From Serratia oryzae (GTDB taxonomy: Bacteria > Pseudomonadota > Gammaproteobacteria > Enterobacterales > Enterobacteriaceae): a DNA stretch of 64,000 nucleotides. The DNA lies in contig NZ_MOXD01000013.1 in NCBI RefSeq assembly GCF_001976145.1, positions 82,718 through 146,717 on the forward strand, given 5' to 3'. Under the pieces are notes generated by a model. The model did not search any database. It worked only from the letters and a program-made list of their open reading frames with translations, and was not told where the DNA came from. Each line of letters begins with the position of its first letter. The stretch's first letter is position 1. Made by a program: the position numbers and the translations under genes. This document shows, piece after piece, positions 29,143 to 37,125 of the stretch.

Positions 29143-30183
29143 TTAGAACAACGCTTTACCGGAACTGTCTTTGATATTAGTTCTCCAGGCAGCACGGATT
29201 TGCTCAACCACTTCTGGTGGTAATGTGGCGTAATCCAGTTCGCTGGCCTGTTTGGCACCGGTTTTGTAAGCCCAGTCAAAGAACTTCAGCACTTCTGCGC
29301 CTTGTTCTGGCTTCTTCTGCTCTTTGTGTACCAGGATAAAGGTGGTGGAGGTGATCGGCCAGACGTTGTCGCCTTTCTGGTTGGTCAGGTCCTGAGCAAA
29401 AGTTTTACTCCAGTCCGCGCCTTTGGCCGCTGCGCTGAAGCTCTCTTCAGTGGGGCTGACCGGCTGGCCGTCTGCTGACACCAGTTTAGTGTAAGCCAGG
29501 TTATTTTGCTTGGCATAGGCGTATTCAACATAACCGATAGAGCCAGGCAGGCGCTGAACAAACGCCGCGATACCGTCATTCCCCTTGCCACCCAGGCCAG
29601 TCGGCCAGTTAACGGTTGAACCTGCACCGATTTTCTCTTTCCACTGTGCGTTAGCTTTAGACAGGTAGCTGGTGAAGACGAAAGAGGTGCCGGAACCGTC
29701 TGCGCGGCGTACCACCGCAATGTTCTGATCCGGTAGCTTCACGCCAGGGTTCAGCTTAACGATCGCCGGGTCATTCCATTTTTTGATGTTACCCAGGTAG
29801 ATATCACCCAAGGTTTGACCATCCAGGGTCAGTTCGCCGGATTTGATGCCCGGAATGTTCACTGCCAACACCACGCCGCCAATCACGGTAGGGAACTGAA
29901 ACAGGCCGTCTGCAGCCAGTTTGTCGTCAGACAGCGGGGCATCGGAAGCGCCAAAGTCAACGGTGTTGGCGATGATTTGCTTCACGCCGCCAGAGGAGCC
30001 GATCCCCTGATAGTTAACTTTGTTGCCGGTTTCTTTCTGATAAGAATCTGCCCACTTGGCGTAAACCGGAGCGGGGAATGTCGCACCTGCACCGGTCAGG
30101 CTAGCAGCAGCGAACGCAGACACAGAGGCCAGGGAAAAAGTCGCTGCCACAATACTGGCGACGGTGGTACGCATCAGTTTCAT
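29143..30183 (-). CDS. pstS: Periplasmic phosphate-binding protein PstS
   Basis: 346 aa, equal to E. coli PstS, from the ATG at 30183, which has AGGAGGG just upstream. A longer in-frame start is not needed. Signal peptide [20 protein letters not shown] then VSAFA, mature start near [19 protein letters not shown]. The phosphate-binding loops [25 protein letters not shown] and [10 protein letters not shown] are intact. High-affinity receptor for the PstCAB importer. Tandem Pho boxes lie 90-130 bp upstream. Confidence 0.98.
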
Positions 30184-30272
30184 AATCCCTCCTAATGGGA
30201 TATTCAAAAATCAACTTTGAGTTGTTTTCATCAGAGTAAGTATTGTTGCAAGAGGGAAAATAGGACAGTTTA

Positions 30273-30312
30273 GTGACAGAAAAATGTACGAAATATGACA
30301 GTTATATTACAG
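30273..30312 (-). promoter_or_regulatory. Tandem Pho boxes of the pst operon
   Basis: On the minus strand the first 18-mer (30295-30312) reads CTGTAATATAACTGTCAT and the second (30273-30290) reads CGTACATTTTTCTGTCAC. Both fit the PhoB consensus CTGTCATAWAWCTGTCAY, 22 bp apart, i.e. on the same helix face. A further CTGTC lies just downstream (30264-30268). Implies activation by PhoB under phosphate limitation. Confidence 0.88.
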
Positions 30313-30424
30313 TCACCCCAAAAACAGGTTAATTAACTTAAAAATCATCAAGATAATAATATCTTACTGGCAGATTTTCACTGCCAGCCGGGTTTAAATC
30401 CGCATATTATTACGCCGTTCACGC

Positions 30425-31708
30425 CTAGAAATAATAGGTAAGCGACATTTGCCAACGCCGTTCTGGCCGCACCGGTTCCACCTGCGATGCTTCAAAACGA
30501 TAGATTTTCTGCCACTGTAAGGCCAGATCCACCGGGCCAATATGACGACGGACTTCGGCAAACCCCATATTCCGCTGCTGTTGCAGATCGCGCTGCCAGA
30601 TCGCGTTAATATCGTAATGATCAACGATATCTTTCCAGTAGGCCTGGAGCAGCACGGAGCGACGGGGCATCAGCCAGTTTTGTGCCTGTAATGGGGCCTC
30701 ACCAAAAGAAACTCCCCCTTGAGCCAGGGCATAAGGAGGTTGGCTGGCAAGGAAATCCAGCGCCCGCCGGTTATCAGCGCTGCCGTTATAATGGCCCTCA
30801 GCGCGCAGCGTTAAGCGATTTTCCCCACTCCAGGTCACCCCATAAGCCAGGCGATTACGCCAGCGGCTTTCCTGCAATGACTCAGGCAATGCGGTTTGCC
30901 AACCGTAAGGCTGACGCCCTCCGGCCCACTCGGTGTAGAGCAGCGTGGAATGGGAGAGCACCCGTGAAAGGTTGAAACCCAACTGCGGCGAGCGGCCTTG
31001 CTCAGCGAGCAGTAACCCTTGCGGGTTCAGATTTTCCGCCCATTTATAGCTGCCCACCAGCAATAGACGCTGCCTGGGGTTGCTGGCCCCCCAATCCAGG
31101 CTGGCACTTTGCTGGCTTGGACGATCGCTGAGCTTAGGCGACCAGATGGCGGTCAACGCGGCTTGATCCCACAAATATTGCCAACGCAGCATGGCATTAC
31201 CCAGGCGGTTATTTCTCAACGTTTCTGGGTCGGCAGAGGTTACAGAGCGCACCGTGCCCTCGCCAAGAAAATCGGTAGGGTTATAACCGAATGCCAAGCC
31301 ATAGCGCGTGTTGACGCGCCCTGCATCCAGCAGTAAACGCGGCGTTACACGATAAGTCAGATAGGCTTCTTTTAGCGAGTTCACGCTGCTGTCACTGCGT
31401 AAACCCGGGGAGAAACGGCTATCAAAACGGTTAGCCAGCACAAAGCGCCAGTCCTGAGAGGGAGTGATCGCCAGAGGAGCATCCCAGCGCAGATCGAGCG
31501 AAACTCGCTGCTGGTTGCCGCCATTCTCATTCACGCTGCTGGCCGCTTCAGCCGACATGTTGAGCTTTTTGCTCTCCGTGGAAGAGAATTTCGTGTTGTC
31601 GGCCAGATCCAAAGCGGCCAGCGTGGCATCTTCTCCATAGGCTGAGTGGCCACACAGAACCGATAACGCCGCTATCCATGATAAAGAAGAGTGTCGCGCT
31701 TTCTTCAT
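30425..31708 (-). CDS. Predicted outer-membrane beta-barrel protein of the ABC/LolA-like operon
   Basis: 427 aa, no named family recognised. A signal peptide (MKKARHSSLSWIAALSVLCG then HSAYG) is followed by a mature part made of short alternating amphipathic strands (e.g. QRVSLDLRWDAPL, WRFVLANRFDSRF, RLTLRAEGHYNG, VDLALQWQKIYRF). The C-terminus is MSLTYYF, ending in the aromatic residue that the Bam machinery recognises. Last of four same-strand genes, 3 bp after the LolA-like gene. Likely an outer-membrane channel or acceptor for whatever the operon's ABC transporter moves. No gene of this kind lies between pstS and glmS in E. coli. Confidence 0.75.
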   Translation of the reverse strand: MKKARHSSLSWIAALSVLCGHSAYGEDATLAALDLADNTKFSSTESKKLNMSAEAASSVNENGGNQQRVSLDLRWDAPLAITPSQDWRFVLANRFDSRFSPGLRSDSSVNSLKEAYLTYRVTPRLLLDAGRVNTRYGLAFGYNPTDFLGEGTVRSVTSADPETLRNNRLGNAMLRWQYLWDQAALTAIWSPKLSDRPSQQSASLDWGASNPRQRLLLVGSYKWAENLNPQGLLLAEQGRSPQLGFNLSRVLSHSTLLYTEWAGGRQPYGWQTALPESLQESRWRNRLAYGVTWSGENRLTLRAEGHYNGSADNRRALDFLASQPPYALAQGGVSFGEAPLQAQNWLMPRRSVLLQAYWKDIVDHYDINAIWQRDLQQQRNMGFAEVRRHIGPVDLALQWQKIYRFEASQVEPVRPERRWQMSLTYYF

Positions 31709-31711
31709 CCG

Positions 31712-32485
31712 TCAGTCATCCTTGAAGTGCGGCAGGTAATCACGCTGCAGCCAGGCCTCTGGAACGTCATACCAGGCAAAATCCTGGTGCTTGAGCACGG
31801 TAACCAATTGCGAATTTATGCCATCGATAATCACCGCTTCCGTTGGGCGGCTTCCACCCAGCACCGGCTGGTAACCACGGAAATAGGTGGTCTTGAGCAA
31901 ACTGCCGTTAACGGCATAAAACTCGGCTTTACAGCTTTTGAAATCCTGTTTATCAACCCAAAGCTCCATAGAGGGATAGGCGGCGTCAGAATTGCGCGCC
32001 ACCAGATGCAGGCGATAACAGTCCCGCAGCTGCCGTTCTCCATCCAATACCTGCTCTTCTTTCACTAAGGTGGCCTGATAGTCGTAATTCCAGTTTGCCG
32101 TCACTACGTCACCGTTGGCAGCCTGCCCCAACAGGCGCTGCTGGGGGGAAATAGGCACGCTAGCCTGGCTGGCAGGATCATACAGCCACAGATCTTGGCC
32201 GCTCTTCAGCGTTAACTTACCGGCATCCCGCTGAGGGCTGACAAACTTCACCAGACTGCGAAACTGGCCGCTCGGATAGGCGCGGGAATAGAGACGCAAA
32301 GTGCTGGTTTCAAACTGCTTGCCGTTTTTATAGCTGACCAGGGTAGTGCTCAAGCTGAAAGAGCGGCTCGGGTTACGAACCTCATCGCTTTTTTTCAAGA
32401 TGTCTTGAGCGCTGAGCGTAGCCAATGCTTGGCCGCTGGCAAACAGGCTGAACAACAGGCCAGAGATCAATGAGAATCTCATCAT
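31712..32485 (-). CDS. Periplasmic LolA-like 'outer membrane lipoprotein-sorting' protein
   Basis: 257 aa. Signal peptide MMRFSLISGLLFSLFASGQA then LA, followed by LSAQDILKKSDEVRNPSRSF, which fits the COG2834-type LolA-like fold. Further strand-rich parts are FETSTLRLYSRAYPSGQFRS, LVKFVSPQRDAGKLTLKSG, DLWLYDPASQASVPISPQQR and SMELWVDKQDFKSCKAEFYA. True LolA shuttles lipoproteins; members of this wider group carry lipids or other hydrophobic cargo beside ABC or RND transporters. There is no lipobox Cys, so the protein should be soluble. 57 bp after the permease gene and 3 bp before the beta-barrel gene. Confidence 0.78.
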   Translation of the reverse strand: MMRFSLISGLLFSLFASGQALATLSAQDILKKSDEVRNPSRSFSLSTTLVSYKNGKQFETSTLRLYSRAYPSGQFRSLVKFVSPQRDAGKLTLKSGQDLWLYDPASQASVPISPQQRLLGQAANGDVVTANWNYDYQATLVKEEQVLDGERQLRDCYRLHLVARNSDAAYPSMELWVDKQDFKSCKAEFYAVNGSLLKTTYFRGYQPVLGGSRPTEAVIIDGINSQLVTVLKHQDFAWYDVPEAWLQRDYLPHFKDD

Positions 32486-32542
32486 GATGTGAATCTTCCT
32501 TGTAAGTAAAACAATAACTTCCCATCCTCCATTACGATGGGA

Positions 32543-33931
32543 TCAAGCATGTCGCAGAGCTTGGACGATACGAACGTTTGCCGCTCGCCGGGCAGGCCAC
32601 CAAGATGAAAACACCGCAGCAACCATCAGAATCGCCAGAACGCTTAGCAGCATCGTCCATTCCCCCCAGATCCTTATCTTGATTGGGATTGGCGCAATCA
32701 CCCCAGGTGGATGCCAGGTCAGGCCCGAGCGATTAATGAGATAGGCCAGAAACAGTGAAAGAGTAATCCCGGTAATACAGCCGATTATACCCAGTAAAAC
32801 GCCTTCATTAAGAAACAAACGCTGGATGTCCTGACGCTTAAGCCCCACCGCTCGTAGCGTACCGATCTCAATCGTGCGCTCCAGAACCGCCATGCTCATG
32901 GTGTTACTGATGGTGAACAACGCAATACATAAAATCAGTGCCAGCAGAAAATGAAATATCTTACCGAACATATCCAGGATCTGGTTATATAACGGCTGTA
33001 ACTGAGAAAAATCATAAACAACCAAGGGTTCATCAACCAGCGTGGTTTTGAATAACTGCTGCAGACGAGCGCGAGCCGCTTCCAGTTGTTCCGTACTACG
33101 CAGCTGCAGAGTAATGGCCGTGACGCCCGGTTGACTACGACCAAACACCAGTTGCTGAGCTTGTGCCAGATGAATACCAACGTAGCTGTCATCCAACTCT
33201 CTGGCGGCCTGCGGCTGCACGCCCTCGACCTTTGCACGAATGATATTAGGTGCTCCACCAACCGAGGCCGCCAACAGTTCGATTTGATCTCCAGTTGGCG
33301 GCTTCCTTTCCTCCCGCGTCTGCTGAGCGAGTTGCATCAGATCGTCAGGAAGCACCGTCGTATTGTTATCTACCGGAGGTGCCGAACTACCACAGGGTTG
33401 GTCAGTAACAAAATCACATAACTGCAGCATCCGCGCCACGCCTGCGCCGATCATGGCGGCATCGGGGGCATGTTCGTTGAGTGTCCTCTCCTGTCTCCCT
33501 TTGCCGAGATGATACTCATCCCATTTGTTCAACGCTGCTTGACCCACAGCTTCGCTGCCGTAAATCAATACGGGACGGGAAGTGCCAGCCGCATAATTTC
33601 CGGCGATACCATTCAGGATCAGCACCGGGGTTTTAACCACCACCATCTGGCTTAGCTCGGGATCCTGCTCAATCAGCGCCATGATTTTCTGGTAGTTTTT
33701 GATACTGTACTCTGCCGGGTTGGCCGAACCATTCAGCAAGTAATCCTTATGCTGTATTTGCAGATGGCCGGTGTCACGAACAAAGGTAGTTTGCAGACTG
33801 TATTCAATGGAACGGTTGTAGCCACCAAACAGCAAAATGCCGACGGCACCGACGGTGATCGCGCAAAGAGTCGATAGCGTCCGGCGTCTGTTACGCAGTA
33901 AGTTGCGTAAGGCCAGCTTGAATGTTTGCAT
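32543..33931 (-). CDS. ABC transporter permease, MacB/LolE (FtsX) type
   Basis: 462 aa. One N-terminal TM (RRTLSTLCAITVGAVGILLF), a large periplasmic domain (about 45-320), then three TM segments of the FtsX domain (FHFLLALILCIALFTISNTM, FLNEGVLLGIIGCITGITLS, WTMLLSVLAILMVAAVFSSW). The ERTIEIGTLRAVGLKRQDI motif is the coupling helix characteristic of LolC/LolE/MacB. Such type VII transporters do not pass cargo through the membrane but extract or push it from the periplasmic face. The periplasmic part has two nearby Cys (LQLCDFVTDQPCGS) that could form a disulfide. One subunit gene only, so presumably a homodimer. Confidence 0.88.
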   Translation of the reverse strand: MQTFKLALRNLLRNRRRTLSTLCAITVGAVGILLFGGYNRSIEYSLQTTFVRDTGHLQIQHKDYLLNGSANPAEYSIKNYQKIMALIEQDPELSQMVVVKTPVLILNGIAGNYAAGTSRPVLIYGSEAVGQAALNKWDEYHLGKGRQERTLNEHAPDAAMIGAGVARMLQLCDFVTDQPCGSSAPPVDNNTTVLPDDLMQLAQQTREERKPPTGDQIELLAASVGGAPNIIRAKVEGVQPQAARELDDSYVGIHLAQAQQLVFGRSQPGVTAITLQLRSTEQLEAARARLQQLFKTTLVDEPLVVYDFSQLQPLYNQILDMFGKIFHFLLALILCIALFTISNTMSMAVLERTIEIGTLRAVGLKRQDIQRLFLNEGVLLGIIGCITGITLSLFLAYLINRSGLTWHPPGVIAPIPIKIRIWGEWTMLLSVLAILMVAAVFSSWWPARRAANVRIVQALRHA

Positions 33932-33954
33932 AATAATTTTCTCCAGCGGGAAAC

Positions 33955-34638
33955 TTACTGCATGGCAATGCGGATTACATTACCGTCATGCACCTGATAG
34001 AGATCGTCTGCTGCCGCAATGACCTGCGGGTCATGGGAAGAAAAGACCACCGTTACCGAATGTTCCTGCTGCAAACGCCGCAGCAACTGCAAAATAGAGT
34101 TGCCGGTTTTGCTGTCCAGATTAGCCGTCGGTTCATCCGCCAGTACCAGAGAAGGGCGATGGATGAGGGCCCGGGCGATCGCAACGCGCTGACGTTGCCC
34201 ACCGGAAAGCTGCCCGGGAAGCGATCGCGCTTTGTCCGCCAAACCGACGGTTTCCAGCATATTCATGATGGCGGATTTTCGCTGCGCAACCGTTGTGCCT
34301 TGCAAGATCAGCGGGATTTCAACGTTTTCCCAAACGCTTAAGACGGGGATTAAATTAAAGTTCTGAAAAATAAATCCAAGGTTGCGGGCGCGAAATGCAC
34401 TGCGCTGATCGTCATTCAGCCGCGACATCTCTTGCCCGGCAATCATCAGGCTACCCCGATCGGGGCGATCGATACCGCCGATGACATTCAATAACGTCGT
34501 TTTGCCACTCCCAGACTGGCCAGATAATACGGTGAAACGTTGCGAGGCAATTTTTATATTAATATCCCTTAATGCCTCGACCTTGGACTGCCCCAATAAA
34601 TAATTTTTATAAATTCCTTTAATCTCTACTGCCCACAT
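33955..34638 (-). CDS. ABC transporter ATP-binding protein, LolD/MacB type
   Basis: 227 aa. Walker A LSGQSGSGKTTLLNVIGG (about 37), Q-loop in LGFIFQNFNLIPVLSV, signature LSGGQRQRVAIARALIHRP (about 136), Walker B LVLADEPTANLDS, and the switch His in VVFSSHDPQ are intact. The size and the ADEPTANLD sequence are typical of the LolD/MacB/FtsE branch. First gene of the four-gene operon, 23 bp before the permease. Confidence 0.92.
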   Translation of the reverse strand: MWAVEIKGIYKNYLLGQSKVEALRDINIKIASQRFTVLSGQSGSGKTTLLNVIGGIDRPDRGSLMIAGQEMSRLNDDQRSAFRARNLGFIFQNFNLIPVLSVWENVEIPLILQGTTVAQRKSAIMNMLETVGLADKARSLPGQLSGGQRQRVAIARALIHRPSLVLADEPTANLDSKTGNSILQLLRRLQQEHSVTVVFSSHDPQVIAAADDLYQVHDGNVIRIAMQ

Positions 34639-35246
34639 TTTTCTTTAATTCCTTTTAAATATGAAGACATCCCTTCACGAAAGAGCCGATAAAGTCAGTC
34701 AAACACACATAAATATAAATAATGTATCTTAGCAAAGCATATAAATATTTGAGTAATAACGCTACGTCAACGTATGGTAAGCGTTACCCTAAGCATCAAG
34801 TCATTATTTTTTAGCGAATCATCAAAACGATCAAGACCCAGAGCCACCAAGGCGATCAAATAATTCGAGTTGCTTGCAGGTGGCAAACGCGTGAATCCCT
34901 ATATCTGACTCGGGTAAACACGTGTAACCAACACTCAAGCAAACTGAAGTATGAAGAGTATATGTTTTTTCTTAACTATAAAACCATCATCAAGACAAAC
35001 CTATAAAAACCTGAACTGTATCATCGACGAAACGATTCAATAAGATTGATGTATTATTAATGCATTTTATAAGGCAACAAGATAAGAGTGATTATTAGTA
35101 CGACAACATAATCAGGTAAAAAATGCCATATTAGCTGGTCAAAATATAAGAAACCTCTCATCTATATAAGCAATATCTTATTTGAATTAGGCCCTGCCTT
35201 TGAAATCTCACATTTTAACTTTTTGTTAATTTTAATACGCCGAAAA
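34639..35246. other. AT-rich 600-bp intergenic stretch upstream of the ABC operon
   Basis: This gap between the ABC ATPase start and the glmS terminator is markedly AT-rich compared with the genes around it. It contains a degenerate ERIC element (34850-34966) and only two 31-codon open frames without ribosome binding sites. It must hold the promoter of the four-gene operon (minus strand), but no clear -35/-10 pair could be chosen. Confidence 0.5.
34850..34966. repeat. Degenerate ERIC element
   Basis: The sequence ATAATTCGAGTTGC...GGTGGCAAACGCGTGAATCC matches one side of ERIC (AATTCGAGTTGCAGGAAGG, then CGGCAAGCGAGTGAATCCC), and ACTGAAGTATGAAGAGTATA matches the other end. The core is eroded. 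Confidence 0.6.
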
Positions 35247-35270
35247 AAAACCGGCGCACAGGCCGGTTTT
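35247..35270 (-). terminator. Rho-independent terminator of glmUS
   Basis: AAAACCGGC-GCACAG-GCCGGTTTT, with an eight-residue T-run when read on the minus strand, 25 bp after the glmS stop. Confidence 0.9.
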
Positions 35271-35295
35271 GATATTATTGGCAGAACCCCATCCA

Positions 35296-37125
35296 TCACT
35301 CTACGGTAACGGACTTCGCCAGGTTACGCGGCTGATCCACGTCAGTACCTTTGATTAACGCCACATAATAGGACAGCAACTGCAACGGTACCGTATAGAA
35401 AATAGGCGCCACGATTTCTTCAACGTGTGGCAATTGAATGATGGTCATACCTTCGCTGCTGACAAAACCGGCATCCTGATCGGCAAACACGTACAGTTGC
35501 CCCCCGCGCGCGCGAACTTCTTCGATGTTGGACTTCAGCTTTTCCAGCAGTTCGTTGTTAGGAGCAACCACAATGACCGGCATATCTGCATCAATCAACG
35601 CCAATGGACCATGCTTTAACTCACCGGCAGCATAGGCTTCCGCATGAATATAGGAGATTTCTTTCAGCTTCAGCGCTCCTTCCATAGCGATCGGATACTG
35701 ATCGCCACGGCCCAGGAACAACGCATGGTGTTTGTCGGAGAAACCTTCCGCCAGCGCTTCAATGCTCTTATCCAGCGACAGCATCTGCTCGATACGCGCT
35801 GGCAGCGCTTGCAGACCGTGGACAATATCATGCTCAACGCTTTCAGCCATTCCCTTCAGGCGGCCAATGCGTGCCACCAGCATCAGCAACACGGCTAATT
35901 GGGTGGTGAAGGCTTTGGTGGAGGCTACACCAATTTCAGTACCTGCTTTGGTCATCAGAGCCAGATCGGATTCACGCACTAAAGAAGAACCGGCAACGTT
36001 ACACACCGCCAGCGATCCCAAGTAACCCAATTCTTTCGACAAGCGCAGCGCAGCAAGCGTATCGGCCGTTTCACCAGACTGTGACAGAGTTACAATCAGG
36101 CTGCCTGGGCGCACCGCAGATTTGCGGTAACGGAACTCCGAAGCAATTTCCACGTCGCATGGCACCCCCGCCAACGCTTCGAACCAGTAACGAGCCACCA
36201 TACCAGAGTGATAAGAGGTACCACAGGCGATGATCTGCACGTGCTGCACTTTTGCCAGCAGCTCATCGGCACGTGGGCCCAATTCACTGAGGTTGATCTG
36301 ACCATGGCTGAAACGCCCTTCAAGGGTGTTTTTCAACGCCATCGGCTGTTCAAAAATCTCTTTTTGCATGTAATGGCGATACGCGCCTTTATCACCGGCA
36401 TCGTATTGCACCTGAGATTCAATCTCTGGGCGCTCAACGGCATTACCCTGCTTATCAAAAATACTGACGGTGCGGCGAGTCACTTCCACCACGTCGCCTT
36501 CTTCCAGGAAAATAAAGCGGCGAGTGACCGGCAACAATGCCAGTTGATCGGAAGCAATAAAGTTTTCACCCACACCACGGCCAATGACCAGCGGGCTACC
36601 GGAACGAGCGGCGACCAATACGTTGGGATCGCGGCTGTCCATCACCACCGCACCGTAAGCACCACGCAGTTGTGGGATCACGCGCTGAACCACGTCCAGT
36701 AGCGTCCCCCCCTGCTTCTGCTCCCAGTGCACCAGGTGAGCAATCACTTCGGTATCGGTTTCTGAACTGAAGCGGTAACCGCGTTCAACCAGCAGTTCAC
36801 GCAGCGGTTCGTGGTTTTCGATAATGCCGTTATGCACCACGGTGATGTAATCAGAAACATGAGGATGCGCATTCGCCTCAGTAGGTTCACCGTGCGTTGC
36901 CCAGCGGGTGTGAGCAATGCCGGTTCCCCCATGCAGAGCATGTTGCTCCGCCGCTTCAGCCAGTTTTTGTACCTTGCCGACGCGGCGTAAACGGCTGACG
37001 TTACTTTCAGCATCAACCACGGCCAAGCCGGCTGAGTCATACCCACGATATTCCAGGCGACGTAAACCTTCTAACAGGATTTCTGCAATATCACGTTGCG
37101 CTACTGCACCTACAATTCCACACAT
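35296..37125 (-). CDS. glmS: Glutamine:fructose-6-phosphate aminotransferase
   Basis: 609 aa. First committed step of amino-sugar synthesis: makes glucosamine-6-phosphate from fructose-6-phosphate and glutamine. The N-terminal glutaminase begins [12 protein letters not shown] with nucleophile Cys2 after Met removal; [17 protein letters not shown] is the glutamine site. Two SIS domains follow (about 285-430 with CGTSYHSG and [11 protein letters not shown], and about 460-600), ending KSVTVE as in the E. coli enzyme. It follows glmU after 215 bp; in E. coli glmUS is cotranscribed and controlled by the GlmZ small RNA, which is likely here but not shown by sequence. Confidence 0.98.

Follow-up and report, generated by a model that had tools for sequence, protein, structure and literature searches.

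Several described systems combine an inner-membrane engine with a LolA-like periplasmic protein, and they provide the comparison for the four-gene set analyzed here, which lies in a 64,000-nucleotide stretch of the Serratia oryzae genome (contig NZ_MOXD01000013.1, positions 82,718 to 146,717 of the forward strand; hereafter, the window) and probably encodes a dedicated, carrier-based, trans-envelope exporter of an amphiphilic lipid-like molecule. How lipids apart from lipopolysaccharide and lipoproteins reach the Gram-negative outer membrane is a long-standing open question. Canonical LolABCDE shares with the set a type VII ATP-binding cassette (ABC) transporter and a LolA-superfamily carrier; however, the set has a single permease, a barrel in place of the LolB lipoprotein, and scores under the LolD and LolCE cut-offs. 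Among systems with a phenotype, AmeABCD of Castellaniella comes nearest: its deletion alters terpene tolerance and Nile Red accumulation (PubMed Central (PMC) record PMC6394551). Like our set, it unites an inner-membrane engine, a LolA-superfamily periplasmic protein and an outer-membrane protein in one cassette; however, its engine is a resistance-nodulation-division (RND) pump, its carrier belongs to DUF1329 and its outer-membrane protein to DUF1302, and it has an extra periplasmic protein, AmeC (PMC6394551). In the window the engine is of the ABC type, and neither DUF1329 nor DUF1302 was matched at E 0.1. The Borrelia cluster BBJ23-BBJ29 likewise has a homodimeric MacB-like permease, a separate ATPase, a LolA-like protein and an outer-membrane barrel, but its barrel is of the Omp85 family, it includes two chaperones and one extra gene, and this seven-gene cluster is reported from Borrelia only (PMC13078400). 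The aryl polyene exporter ApeL-ApeM-ApeN also has a LolA-like carrier, for which delivery of a polyketide-type lipid to the outer membrane has been proposed, but with an RND engine, a LolB-like receptor and a location inside the biosynthetic cluster (PMC8253772), and LolA/exporter genes are likewise found inside xanthomonadin-type clusters (PMC3949708). MacAB-TolC shares the MacB-type periplasmic domain and the FtsX permease, whereas here the ATPase is separate from the permease and none of the four open reading frames (ORFs) matched an adaptor or TolC family of Pfam at E 0.1. Extraction of molecules from the membrane was proposed as a common role of many type VII ABC systems in a study of YbbAP-TesA (PMC12646458). 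The components and the general idea are known, whereas searches of the open-licence PMC literature, judged from the papers listed, gave no description of the exact set (a single-permease type VII ABC transporter, a PF17131 carrier and this barrel). The preliminary description of the locus, made from its letters alone, had named no system of this composition; that holds for the exact set, although AmeABCD, Borrelia BBJ25-28 and ApeLMN are described analogues.

All four ORFs are intact on the minus strand and span positions 34638 to 30425, in the following order:

33955..34638, minus strand: ABC ATPase of the LolD/MacB/FtsE type, first gene, 227 aa (PF00005, E 2.4e-33)
32543..33931, minus strand: single type VII ABC permease with FtsX domain and MacB-like periplasmic domain, 462 aa
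31712..32485, minus strand: LolA-like predicted periplasmic carrier (PF17131), 257 aa
30425..31708, minus strand: predicted outer-membrane beta-barrel of about 18 strands with C-terminal YYF, 427 aa

The gaps between the genes are 23, 57 and 3 bases, and a purine-rich stretch precedes each of the four starts (AAGGAAT, GGAGAA, AGGAAG and AAGGATGA). The genes are probably co-transcribed. The ratios of nonsynonymous to synonymous substitution rates (dN/dS) against Serratia sp. Ag1 were 0.037 for the ATPase, 0.052 for the permease, 0.057 for the LolA-like protein and 0.116 for the barrel, indicating purifying selection on all four genes; for comparison, those of the flanking glmS and pstS were 0.010 and 0.028, respectively.

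The ATPase has Walker A (residue 40), LSGGQ (144), LVLADEP (164) and SSHD (200) motifs, and Walker B is present. Its best NCBIfam match was TIGR02211 (LolD) with 216.2 bits, under the equivalog cut-off of 307.75, and the permease scored 89.1 bits against TIGR02212 (LolC/LolE or LolF), for which the cut-off is 362.45. The permease has the features of the type VII ABC (MacB/LolCE/FtsX) superfamily, i.e., an FtsX fold, a periplasmic domain and four membrane helices. In its structural model, four long helices were seen and the nearest structures were LolCDE chains. hhalign aligned it with LolE across most of its length (98.3%) and with LolC in the C-terminal part only, so that no equivalent of the LolC hook could be assigned. 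Two permease cysteines, C172 and C180, were nearly invariant (at least 90%) among 32 aligned homologues, and a disulfide may link them within the periplasmic domain.

The third protein scored 119.3 bits against PF17131, above the gathering cut-off of 30; this was its only Pfam match at E 0.1, and PF03548 (LolA proper) was not matched. Its solved relative is PDB 3buu (E 3.2e-38), a homology that speaks for a LolA fold. The N-terminus looks by eye like a signal peptide and has no N-terminal Cys for a lipobox. Known LolA-superfamily relatives bind acyl chains. The carrier is tractable for identification of a bound lipid by mass spectrometry.

The barrel matched no Pfam (E 0.1) or NCBIfam family. 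It contains the conserved segment DxGRxNxRYGxxxGYNPTDF, and 292 homologues were found among the candidates scored, the nearest named ones being those of Serratia sp. D1N4 (86%), Serratia sp. Ag1 (81%) and Chania (79%). AlphaFold2 modelling of a protein 99% identical to it (P0001), set beforehand as a possible refutation, predicted a barrel of about 18 strands, with a local confidence score (pLDDT) of 67.5 and a template-modelling score (pTM) of 0.68. Foldseek matched this model to OprD/Occ and AlgE barrels (E ~1e-10), and no Omp85 chain was among the structure matches listed. When the PDB was searched with a profile of the barrel, the result was two weak matches (E 0.41 and 0.59), both to short designed proteins, which we took as chance. 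Altogether, the preliminary description had read the locus as four same-strand genes with small gaps that encode a LolD/MacB-type ATPase, one FtsX permease, a LolA-like carrier and a barrel ending in Tyr-Tyr-Phe: the gene arrangement and the terminal residues were confirmed, Pfam and NCBIfam profiles and the LolCDE-like permease model agree with the two engine assignments, and the carrier and barrel assignments are supported by homology and by the predicted model, respectively.

The four genes are retained together in other genomes. A scan of named genomes found 208 barrel relatives, and the best 80 loci were used, several of which are from near relatives. The LolA-like gene adjoins the barrel gene in all 80, and the complete set is present in 71, always in the same gene order (71/71). 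Three incomplete loci (L048, L060 and L082) stop at a contig end. The remaining six (L052, L056, L062, L070, L073 (Rhodoferax), and L050 from an uncultured betaproteobacterium) hold only the LolA-like and barrel genes, and all six genomes keep an ATPase-permease pair of the same family elsewhere, with different genes downstream of the pair. Thus, the inner-membrane half of the set became separated from the half that encodes carrier and barrel, and neither was lost, so that engine, carrier and presumed receptor are found whole in 77 of the 80 loci or genomes, the other three being cut by contig ends. Probably, the six splits go back to one or a few events. Each split genome has one barrel and one close LolA-like protein; in two (G446 and G448) a further LolA match was found that is weaker, and G443 carries a second permease of the same family. 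Pairwise distances among the four proteins correlated with coefficients of 0.835-0.901 (71 loci and the window; species history included). The set recurs in many Betaproteobacteria, and the linkage of its genes is far beyond chance; the linkage assumed in the preliminary description was hence upheld in relatives. In addition, Chromobacterium haemolyticum DSM 19808 (L031:2863-9920) carries, in tandem with the full operon, a second group of ATPase, permease and LolA genes, with one barrel in all, and in Morganella psychrotolerans (L034:9968-11246) the barrel gene lies in two overlapping ORFs and appears broken.

More distant sister operons narrow the likely cargo. LolA-like matches were found in 19 of 59 relatives and, with E values of at most 1e-10, in 47 of 398 genomes from the phylum, and 40 sister regions were fetched, chosen from 23 and 57 listed places. 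Two of them (L146 and L157) were excluded since the LolA ORF was lost in greedy ORF picking, leaving 38 regions, many from close relatives and hence not independent: 22 are of the ABC type, 10 of the RND type (an RND-like gene followed by the LolA-like gene and by one for a protein of 398-451 aa) and 6 of neither. Note that, among the ABC-type loci, L145 has a window-type barrel, and the L134 permease and the L148 ATPase each lie in two ORFs. Ketosynthase-like and FabD-like genes occur among or directly beside the transport genes in nine of the 22 ABC-type loci (L132-L139 and L149), and in six of these nine a ketoreductase-like gene stands between the permease and LolA genes. Profile searches, made for the synthesis genes of L135 only, identified ketosynthase domains, a short-chain dehydrogenase/reductase of the enoyl/ketoacyl-reductase type and a FabD-type acyltransferase. 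At L131, the operon lies beside divergent ketosynthase-like, acyl-CoA-dehydrogenase-like and AMP-ligase-like genes (names partly by eye). Of the other ABC-type loci, six are accompanied by a LytS/LytTR-like pair and six have neither. The barrels of L132-L139 and L149 are homologous to the window barrel (hhalign 95.0%, E 3.5e-8), and Vibrio-like barrels are probably so as well (86.6%, E 4.5e-6, from three rows only), while the RND-type outer-membrane protein was not detected as a homologue by hhalign (probability 0.45%). The permease tree unites L131 with the window family at 100/100 and places the remaining synthesis-linked loci outside this group, suggesting that the link to synthesis genes arose or was kept on two branches, although the L131 branch is long and its placement unsure. 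Since sister operons sit among ketosynthase, ketoreductase and acyltransferase genes, the cargo would be a lipid of the fatty-acyl or polyketide type and not a lipoprotein; both cargo and export direction are read from the sister operons and the analogues. The preliminary description had proposed, more broadly, that the set is dedicated to exporting or sorting a lipid, a lipoprotein or some other hydrophobic molecule; this proposal is in this way supported and, by analogy, narrowed toward the lipid/polyketide type, and the relatives within such clusters offer a route to the cargo.

Some of these regions hold further genes. In genome G001, the loci L171, L135 and L172 belong to a type II fatty-acid/polyketide-like cluster with interleaved ABC-LolA-barrel genes, where holo-ACP-synthase-like, dehydratase-like and ACP-like genes (ACP, acyl carrier protein) were also recognized by eye; searches for such clusters in the open-licence PMC literature gave no paper on this one. 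Genome G033 (L131, L173 and L175) has an RND-like gene with a LolA-like neighbour several kb from the ABC-type operon, with tryptophan-pathway-like genes around; these names were given by eye. A ketosynthase search of the S. oryzae genome itself gave seven matches, four of them strong, and the one inspected, on contig C3, lies beside a MacB-like gene and is unlinked to the operon. At this place (G000:C3, ~11.5-23 kb; L211), peptidase-type ABC transporter-like, MacA/MacB-like and outer-membrane-factor-like genes precede ketosynthase, dehydratase-like, ACP-like and ketoreductase-like genes, all but the ketosynthase named by eye; this cluster may make and export an acylated product.

A LytS-like gene starts at most 150 bases after the barrel gene on the same strand in 12 of the 80 barrel loci (at L064, the called start overlaps the barrel), and it is followed by a LytTR-like regulator in 10 of the 12, the other two reaching a contig end; the names LytS and LytTR are a reading of the sequences by eye. 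Chitiniphilus is an example of an environmental host in which such a pair is linked to the set. Neighbour clustering of the 80 loci revealed, apart from the LytS/LytTR-like genes and one unnamed group in 12 loci, no partner that is widely shared and could be a linked cargo gene; synthesis genes are rare in this family. The window operon has no flanking LytS/LytTR-like pair, its neighbours being glmS and pstS.

In the mechanism that we propose, the ABC transporter would extract from the inner membrane a lipid-like molecule of amphiphilic nature, with the permease acting as a homodimer on two ATPases. By type VII mechanotransmission, the cargo would be lifted from the outer leaflet and not passed through a pore. 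It would then be handed to the soluble LolA-like protein, which would shuttle it to the outer membrane, where it would likely be released through or beside the dedicated barrel. The barrel would thereby replace LolB as the receptor, and it may bring the cargo to the cell surface.

An unlikely but serious alternative is that the set serves inducible efflux of toxic hydrophobic compounds (membrane-inserted antibiotics, solvents or terpenes) from the inner membrane, and not export of a self-made lipid. The LytS-like genes after 12 of the 80 barrels and the LytS/LytTR-like pairs at 6 of the 22 sister loci would suit a sensed stress, the window has no linked synthesis genes, and deletion of AmeABCD reduces monoterpene tolerance (PMC6394551). 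However, sister operons are built into biosynthetic-type clusters, and the four genes include neither a TolC-type factor nor a membrane-fusion adaptor. A second lipoprotein-sorting route, in which the barrel takes over from LolB and some lipoproteins are carried, perhaps as far as the cell surface, is improbable. The same genome encodes, outside the operon, LolB (PF03550) once on contig C11, LolA (PF03548) once on C53 and two LolCE permeases above the TIGR02212 cut-off (G000:C11); PF03550 was unmatched among the four operon proteins, which also fall below the Lol equivalog cut-offs, and lipid-synthesis-type genes accompany 10 of the 22 ABC-type sister loci, although no search aimed at linked lipoprotein genes was made. 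We rejected the idea that the operon replaces the Lol pathway, because LolA, LolB, LolC and LolE are encoded elsewhere and the operon proteins score under the Lol cut-offs (no search for LolD was made). That the ABC pair acts mechanically on the barrel or carrier without any cargo, as FtsEX does on EnvC, is highly implausible, since, although type VII ABC proteins often do non-transport work in the periplasm (PMC12646458), both the co-retained LolA-superfamily protein and the RND-driven versions argue for a cargo.

Returning to export of a lipid-like molecule, we tentatively propose that the set belongs to a modular exporter class, in which a LolA-like shuttle and a dedicated barrel are combined with an engine of the ABC (type VII) or the RND kind. 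The set in the window would be the stand-alone ABC form, which is found in many Betaproteobacteria and sporadically in Enterobacterales, and which could secrete an envelope lipid to the surface under LytS/LytTR-type control in some hosts.

The set is located between glmS and pstS, with the following features around it:

35296..37125, minus strand: glmS, upstream neighbour, outside the system
35247..35270: stem-loop directly after glmS
34639..35295: AT-rich intergenic region upstream of the set, 657 bases, GC content 0.346, presumed promoter region
29143..30207, minus strand: pstS, downstream neighbour, outside the system

Scans of the upstream region for promoter and terminator consensus sequences gave nothing above shuffles. 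Pho-box-like repeats are present at 30262-30312, in front of pstS, and no such box was found upstream of the ATPase gene. Membership in the Pho regulon was rejected, as the window had 4 matches (three before pstS and one inside the permease gene) against 4.49 expected by chance.

The preliminary description had placed the set as an interruption of the pstS-glmS junction of E. coli. The location is correct, and in Serratia sp. Ag1 (L021) the operon sits at the same junction; however, the junction content varies, so the interruption says little. Specifically, counting ORFs of at least 90 aa, the genus members G001, G003 and G004 have at least two other ORFs at the junction, and G022 and G023 have one small ORF each, while G002 has a different gene set beside pstS and its glmS lies outside the fetched 11 kb. 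Given this variability across the genus and family, the position of the operon gives no functional hint, and the junction (30207-35296) is perhaps an insertion hotspot. A recent foreign island was not apparent from base composition, the GC content of the genes (0.51-0.56) not being distinct from that of the window (0.535). The set is present in three of seven genomes of the genus, including that of the window, and one Paraburkholderia row falls inside the Enterobacterales group of the permease tree. This patchy presence and tree placement suggest horizontal transfer of the set.

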